Origin: Methylobacterium sp.
GTDB lineage: Bacteria > Pseudomonadota > Alphaproteobacteria > Rhizobiales > Beijerinckiaceae
Length of the DNA stretch: 64,000 nt
Direction: 5' to 3'
Assembly: GCA_013823325.1 (NCBI GenBank)
Contig: PNLY01000012.1
Coordinates: forward strand, 23,441 to 87,440
Position numbers and translations under genes: made by a program. This document shows, one piece after another, positions 17,908 through 18,411 of this stretch. Positions within the stretch are counted from its first letter, which is position 1. Each line of letters opens with the position of its first letter. The notes below the pieces were generated by a model, which had not been told where the DNA came from, searched no databases, and worked only from the letters and a program-made list of their open reading frames with translations.

Positions 17908-18345
17908 TCAATCCGCCGTCTGCTTGCGGGCCGCGGACAGCATGCCTTCCGCCGCCTGCACGGTTTGCTCGAGCGACAACTGCTCATCCTCCTGCGGATC
18001 GAAGCAGATGCCCTTGCAAGCCGAGATCAGTGCCGCAGCAACGGCATAGGCAAAGGCGCCCTCGACGAAACTCGCACCCCAATAGAAGGCGACGACCCGC
18101 GCGATGCCCTCCGCATTCGGGCCGAATAGCTCCACCAGATCATCGACCTCCGTTCGATCGGAGACGCTGATTTCGATGCCGGCCTGCATCTGCGCCAGCC
18201 TGCCCGGCTGAAATCCGTCGACGTCGTCGAGCGAAAAACCCTTGTCGAACGAGAGCGTGAGGCCGAGACGCGCGGCTTCGGCCGCGATCGCCCCGCCCGT
18301 GGTCGTCATTCCGGCCGGCAAGCCGACAAGCAACTCCATCGACAT
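17908..18345 (-). CDS. unrecognised 145-residue protein under a predicted LexA-controlled promoter
   Basis: I do not recognise the family. The protein is 145 residues with no signal peptide. A Gly-rich start is followed by a charged middle and a hydrophobic helix region near 85-110 containing VVAFYWGASFVEGAFAYAVA, and an acidic segment FDPQEDEQ. It could be soluble or weakly membrane-associated. A GGGGGGA ribosome site lies five bases before the ATG at 18345. Just upstream is a near-consensus promoter whose -10 element lies inside GTTC-N7-GTTC, the alphaproteobacterial LexA box (see 18380-18394). This suggests induction by DNA damage. It is convergent with the ABC exporter. Confidence 0.75.
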   Translation of the reverse strand: MSMELLVGLPAGMTTTGGAIAAEAARLGLTLSFDKGFSLDDVDGFQPGRLAQMQAGIEISVSDRTEVDDLVELFGPNAEGIARVVAFYWGASFVEGAFAYAVAAALISACKGICFDPQEDEQLSLEQTVQAAEGMLSAARKQTAD

Positions 18346-18379
18346 CGTATTCCCCCCGTTTGCTCGGCCTCAGCCATTT

Positions 18380-18394
18380 GTTCACTATTTGTTC
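18380..18394 (-). promoter_or_regulatory. LexA (SOS) box, GTTC-N7-GTTC
   Basis: GTTC at 18380-18383 and GTTC at 18391-18394 are separated by seven AT-rich bases; on the minus strand this reads GAACAAATAGTGAAC. This is the known LexA-site form of alphaproteobacteria. It overlaps the predicted -10 of the minus-strand gene starting at 18345, 34 bases downstream, so bound LexA would block the promoter. No plus-strand gene starts nearby. Confidence 0.7.
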
Positions 18395-18411
18395 TGTATG
18401 GCCGCTGTCAA
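18384..18411 (-). promoter_or_regulatory. sigma-70 type promoter for the LexA-box gene
   Basis: On the minus strand a perfect -35 TTGACA (18406-18411) is followed after 16 bases by AATAGT (18384-18389) as -10. The -10 lies inside the LexA box. The start codon is 39 bases downstream of the -10, leaving a short leader with a strong ribosome site. Confidence 0.5.

Follow-up and report, generated by a model that had tools for sequence, protein, structure and literature searches.

The SOS box and the gene that it faces

The 64,000-nucleotide stretch of Methylobacterium sp. DNA considered here (contig PNLY01000012.1, positions 23,441 to 87,440; the window in what follows) carries a gene for a 145-amino-acid (aa) protein of an unnamed family. 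This gene is faced by a promoter predicted from the sequence, TTGACA-N16-AATAGT, which is overlapped by a GTTC-N7-GTTC box of the LexA type (Table 1). A first-pass annotation had placed the box, both promoter elements, the G-run and the open reading frame (ORF), and re-reading of the sequence found all of these positions correct.

Table 1. Features of the SOS-box locus, in window coordinates
Feature	Position	Strand	Basis
LexA-type SOS box, predicted: GAACAAATAGTGAAC on the gene's strand, GTTCACTATTTGTTC on the plus strand	18380..18394	-	Sequence; kept in orthologues
AATAGT, -10-like, within the box	18384..18389	-	Sequence; AATAGT/AATAGT/AATAAT in three orthologues
TTGACA, -35-like, 16 bases from the -10-like element	18406..18411	-	Sequence; 17 bases in three orthologues
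GGGGGGA, ribosome-binding-like G-run, 5 bases from ATG	18351..18357	-	Sequence
145-aa protein, ATG at 18345; solo member of an unnamed family of ~140-160 aa	17908..18345	-	ORF, homologues, dN/dS, model

The upstream neighbour, presumably leuB, has the same orientation and ends ~0.2 kb before the gene, so that the box is left without another obvious target at the locus. The ORF looks like a real gene, since its ratio of nonsynonymous to synonymous substitution (dN/dS) is 0.27 and 0.37 in pairwise comparisons with two orthologues and its predicted structure is a confident single domain (pLDDT 91.9). Across nine pairs of solo family genes, dN/dS ranges from 0.06 to 0.37. As the first-pass annotation had held, the protein is not one of the usual SOS products: Pfam, NCBIfam, PADLOC and PHROGs give no significant match for it, a beta-lactamase row in NCBIfam (E 0.066) being taken as noise. 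Pfam finds nothing in seven relatives, and DARPins at E 0.015 in a Protein Data Bank (PDB) sequence search with the family were judged noise. In a Foldseek search with the model, the ZipA C-terminal domain appears in the top rows as a weak match (template-modelling score <0.4). Because of this weak signal, one rival explanation stays in play, namely that the protein is an SOS-induced inhibitor of cell division with a ZipA-C-terminal-domain-like fold, which would stall FtsZ or another part of the divisome as SidA does in Caulobacter; we regard this as improbable.

The SOS motif in the genome and in the family

The bare GTTC-N7-GTTC motif is no evidence in itself, because it occurs once in the window against a mean of 1.01 in shuffles, and its 114 sites across the genome compare with 93 for the reversed control. 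The form with an AT-rich spacer, GTTCNNNWWWTGTTC, which the site in the window matches, behaves differently, with 20 sites in the genome versus 1 in the reversed control. In a library scan of eight genes adjoining these AT-rich sites, RecA, single-stranded-DNA-binding protein (ssb) and DnaB were recognised above curated cut-offs, while two ImuA-like proteins and one RmuC-like protein scored below them.

An upstream comparison of orthologues, proposed in the first-pass annotation as a check in which missing boxes would count against SOS control, found the box retained. Of 67 genomes in the genus, 5 have an orthologue of the 145-aa protein, and the exact 4+4 motif lies 40-53 bp upstream of four of the five (the one in the window included), in flanking DNA that has diverged; in these promoters TTGACA stands 16-17 bases ahead of AATAGT or AATAAT inside the box. 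The fifth orthologue (L035) has a one-mismatch site further upstream, at 96 bp.

Beyond the genus, the family was sampled in part. Among the genomes searched with profiles, relatives turned up in 14 of 397 from the order, 2 of 289 from the class, 62 of 296 from one family and 5 of 75 from a Devosia genus, with 12 named loci besides. Of the 92 records collected, 14 were dropped (L070, which lies beside masked bases, and the 13 distant homologues L141-L153, with no box or toxin flagged in them), leaving 78 that correspond to 66 distinct proteins. Genus g385, which is Rhodopseudomonas-like, and g395 were also searched for fresh genomes; this returned no members beyond those already in the set and is therefore no independent test.

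A GTTCN7GTTC site lies within 250 bp upstream of 22 of the 66 distinct members, which belong to 8 genera of 4 families: 4 in the same genus as the window, 5 in the Devosia genus, 2 Phreatobacter-like, 4 Rhodopseudomonas-like and 7 in four further genera. At the motif density of the genome, the chance of such a box is ~0.005 per gene, and the boxed homologues outside the genus are only ~19-27% identical to the 145-aa protein. Since the box belongs to a genome-wide LexA-type class and is kept upstream of both near and far homologues, the gene is very likely SOS-controlled, with LexA binding and induction by DNA damage as predictions; the proposal of LexA control in the first-pass annotation is thereby strengthened by the enrichment of the AT-rich class. 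The rival explanation that the match to the box is fortuitous and the gene outside SOS regulation draws on the bare motif, of which about one is expected per 64 kb, but the 20-to-1 excess of the AT-rich class and the boxes upstream of a third of the distinct members (22 of 66) make it highly implausible.

Several observations were made beside these results. AT-rich SOS boxes also adjoin the starts of L039 (C14), a radical-SAM DNA repair candidate (TIGR03916), and L016 (C6), a YifB-type ATPase, both above curated cut-offs. Two imuA-like genes of the same genome, L014 (C6) and L046 (C73), each have an AT-rich SOS box, which suggests two mutasome cassettes. Identical SOS-type sites, GTTCATGATATGTTC, are found at L021 (C11) and L048 (C74) of this genome, and a 129-aa protein that we take to be DnaA-C-terminal-like starts near the latter. 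Weak family matches in two further genomes of the genus, with a second match in one genome, lie inside long proteins (L036, L037 and L038, from G013, G022 and G039; frames of 587-619 aa). These proteins resemble the family in their N-terminal part and continue into a long region; L037, the one scanned, has no Pfam match.

Putative nuclease-toxin neighbours of the family

The context of the relatives points to a function. A total of 29 of the 66 distinct members lie directly downstream of a gene whose product has a PD-(D/E)XK nuclease-like domain at its end, as in a toxin-immunity pair, and in 28 of these 29 the stop codon of the nuclease is within 60 bp of the start of the family gene. The partner domain, a candidate PD-(D/E)XK nuclease, has an invariant E, D and D-x-K, and the fold and topology of its model agree with that class, but among 14 partner domains Pfam PDDEXK_1 matched only one, at E 0.03; a PDB sequence search with one toxin returned nothing, and ribosomal L8 at E 0.002 in a search with the nuclease profile was judged noise.

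In contrast, no nuclease-toxin ORF stands beside the 145-aa gene at its locus, and the gene is therefore called an orphan. In this genus and seven others, the family gene has no toxin gene directly upstream, and instead a LexA-type box lies over or near its promoter. The nuclease profile, which found its target in 4 of 4 toxin-linked control genomes, gave a close relative in 3 of the 22 box genomes and distant cousins in 6; the other 13 had no match. Of the three close relatives, the one at L172 is an ORF ~0.8 kb upstream of the family gene and separated from it by an inverted gene, that at L173 is a fragment at the end of a contig, and that at L174 is an ORF with an internal stop.

Some of these surroundings can be described further. 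At L172 (2500-3187, locus reversed), the inverted gene that separates the nuclease ORF from the SOS-box immunity-like gene is presumably DUF4304-like, and a similar gene lies by the L174 nuclease. The genome that holds the window has a distant nuclease cousin of its own on another contig (L085/L164, C91; E 3.4e-11). It forms the end of a longer protein whose N-terminal part contains NPDQPRVPAGNADGGQWT, and the gene downstream of it is a different one; three more genomes of the genus have cousins as well. Near one and the same gene, which we take to be thiC, Phreatobacter, Afipia and Tardiphaga carry solo genes and toxin-linked pairs (L073, L074, L075, L077, L079 and L084), as if one locus held either state.

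Box and adjacent toxin do not occur together in any of the 66 members, which divide into 29 that are toxin-linked, 22 that are boxed, none that are both and 15 that are neither (L035 among them), a distribution with a Fisher p of 9e-8 when relatedness is ignored. On a tree labelled with 26 toxin, 22 box and 18 neither (three members with variant D-x-K motifs were later moved to toxin-linked by eye), the box state changes 8 times, at least 5 of these forced by supported branches, against a mean of 18.8 in shuffles. The possibility that the toxin operons are themselves SOS-controlled in the manner of colicins was rejected: in the 42,221 bp before the 29 toxin-linked genes there are 3 bare-motif sites versus 0.8 expected, and the only AT-rich one (L127, at -345) falls by position within the upstream nuclease ORF.

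Two other rival explanations bear on this evidence. The protein could serve some other SOS-regulated function unrelated to immunity, such as a repair accessory or the control of prophages or mobile elements, and the sequence family libraries do indeed give it no name; with toxin-linked relatives, and a homologue (L053) without a match in plasmid and phage records, this appears unlikely. Alternatively, an immunity protein may have been recruited as a damage-induced inhibitor of a PD-(D/E)XK nuclease of the cell itself, such as a repair nuclease or the nuclease domain of AddAB. Such a role is improbable, as the gene occurs patchily (in 5 of 67 genomes in its genus and 5 of 75 in the Devosia genus), which would be unusual for a protein that regulates a core enzyme.

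A proposed orphan antidote under SOS control

From the relatives directly downstream of PD-(D/E)XK nuclease-like genes, the interpretation that we favour, if by inclination rather than conviction, is that the 145-aa protein is an SOS-inducible orphan immunity protein, the antidote to a nuclease toxin. The first-pass annotation had spoken of an unstudied damage-response factor; the SOS control in that description stands, whereas its sense of a repair protein gives way to that of an immunity protein under SOS control. In such a circuit, LexA would hold expression of the antidote low until a nuclease toxin, arriving from a neighbour or encoded on incoming DNA, damaged the chromosome. RecA filaments would then lead to self-cleavage of LexA and opening of the promoter, and the newly made 145-aa protein would bind and block the nuclease while the SOS repair genes mended the breaks. 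The cost of the antidote would be borne only while the DNA of the cell was being cut.

Published work makes this circuit workable: PoNe, a DNase effector of the PD-(D/E)xK type, switches on an SOS reporter (PMC6688995), and cells attacked by a DNase CdiA toxin induce sulA (PMC12607911). In the same account of CdiA, immunity protein made 5 minutes after mixing saves some of the attacked cells and 10 minutes is too late, from which an SOS-driven antidote would be expected to help under light or repeated attack.

More generally, it is an evenly balanced proposition that LexA sounds the alarm in an inducible defence against toxins, in which genes for orphan immunity to DNA-cutting toxins came under SOS several times and the damage done by the weapon summons the antidote. 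The repetition in this reading rests on the 8 changes of box state on the tree, at least 5 of them forced by well-supported branches. Some results weigh against these proposals. The case from the separation of box and toxin is weaker once relatedness is counted, given the 8 changes against 18.8 in shuffles, and an independent-pairs test is not significant (5 pairs; 0 the same way, ~1 the other way). By the CdiA timing, an SOS-driven antidote may also come too late under heavy attack. If the proposals are true, the SOS response serves defence against rival bacteria as well as DNA repair, and the same role may be proposed for boxed small genes of no known function in the SOS regulons of alphaproteobacteria.

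Comparison with known systems

The locus resembles the alphaproteobacterial SOS regulon, as known from Caulobacter, in its GTTCN7GTTC motif with an AT-rich spacer over or near a promoter, and this genome has such sites before recA and ssb; it differs in its target, an accessory gene that belongs to an unnamed family and whose regulation is predicted. The published Caulobacter LexA motif is GTTCN7GTTC, for example GTTCttgttatGTTC (PMC12700426). In structure alone, the 145-aa model weakly matches CdiI of Burkholderia pseudomallei (PDB 4g6v_B; Foldseek E 2.1, tied with ZipA and ribosomal L10).

PoNe/PoNi and RdnE/RdnI, which pair PD-(D/E)XK DNase effectors with immunity proteins, share with the toxin-linked relatives the order of nuclease gene and then immunity gene, and such DNases provoke SOS or SOS-like signs. 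PoNi is defined by DUF1911/DUF1910, which Pfam does not find here; the likeness to PoNe and RdnE is one of layout and of putative nuclease class. Orphan immunity genes of the type VI secretion system (T6SS), of AID islands and of colicins are alike in that an immunity-family gene has no toxin beside it, but SOS control of an orphan immunity gene had no counterpart in searches of an open-access library, closed journals lying outside them. Orphan immunity genes and DNase toxins that trigger SOS are already known, and the joining of the two is seemingly new.

Colicin operons with their immunity genes are LexA-controlled and, as here, link a LexA box to a toxin-immunity family. LexA can control toxin-immunity loci, as colicin genes show, and orphan immunity genes are widespread (PMC12546727). 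The two arrangements differ: in colicin operons it is the toxin that is SOS-induced, whereas here the box belongs to immunity-like genes that stand without a toxin.
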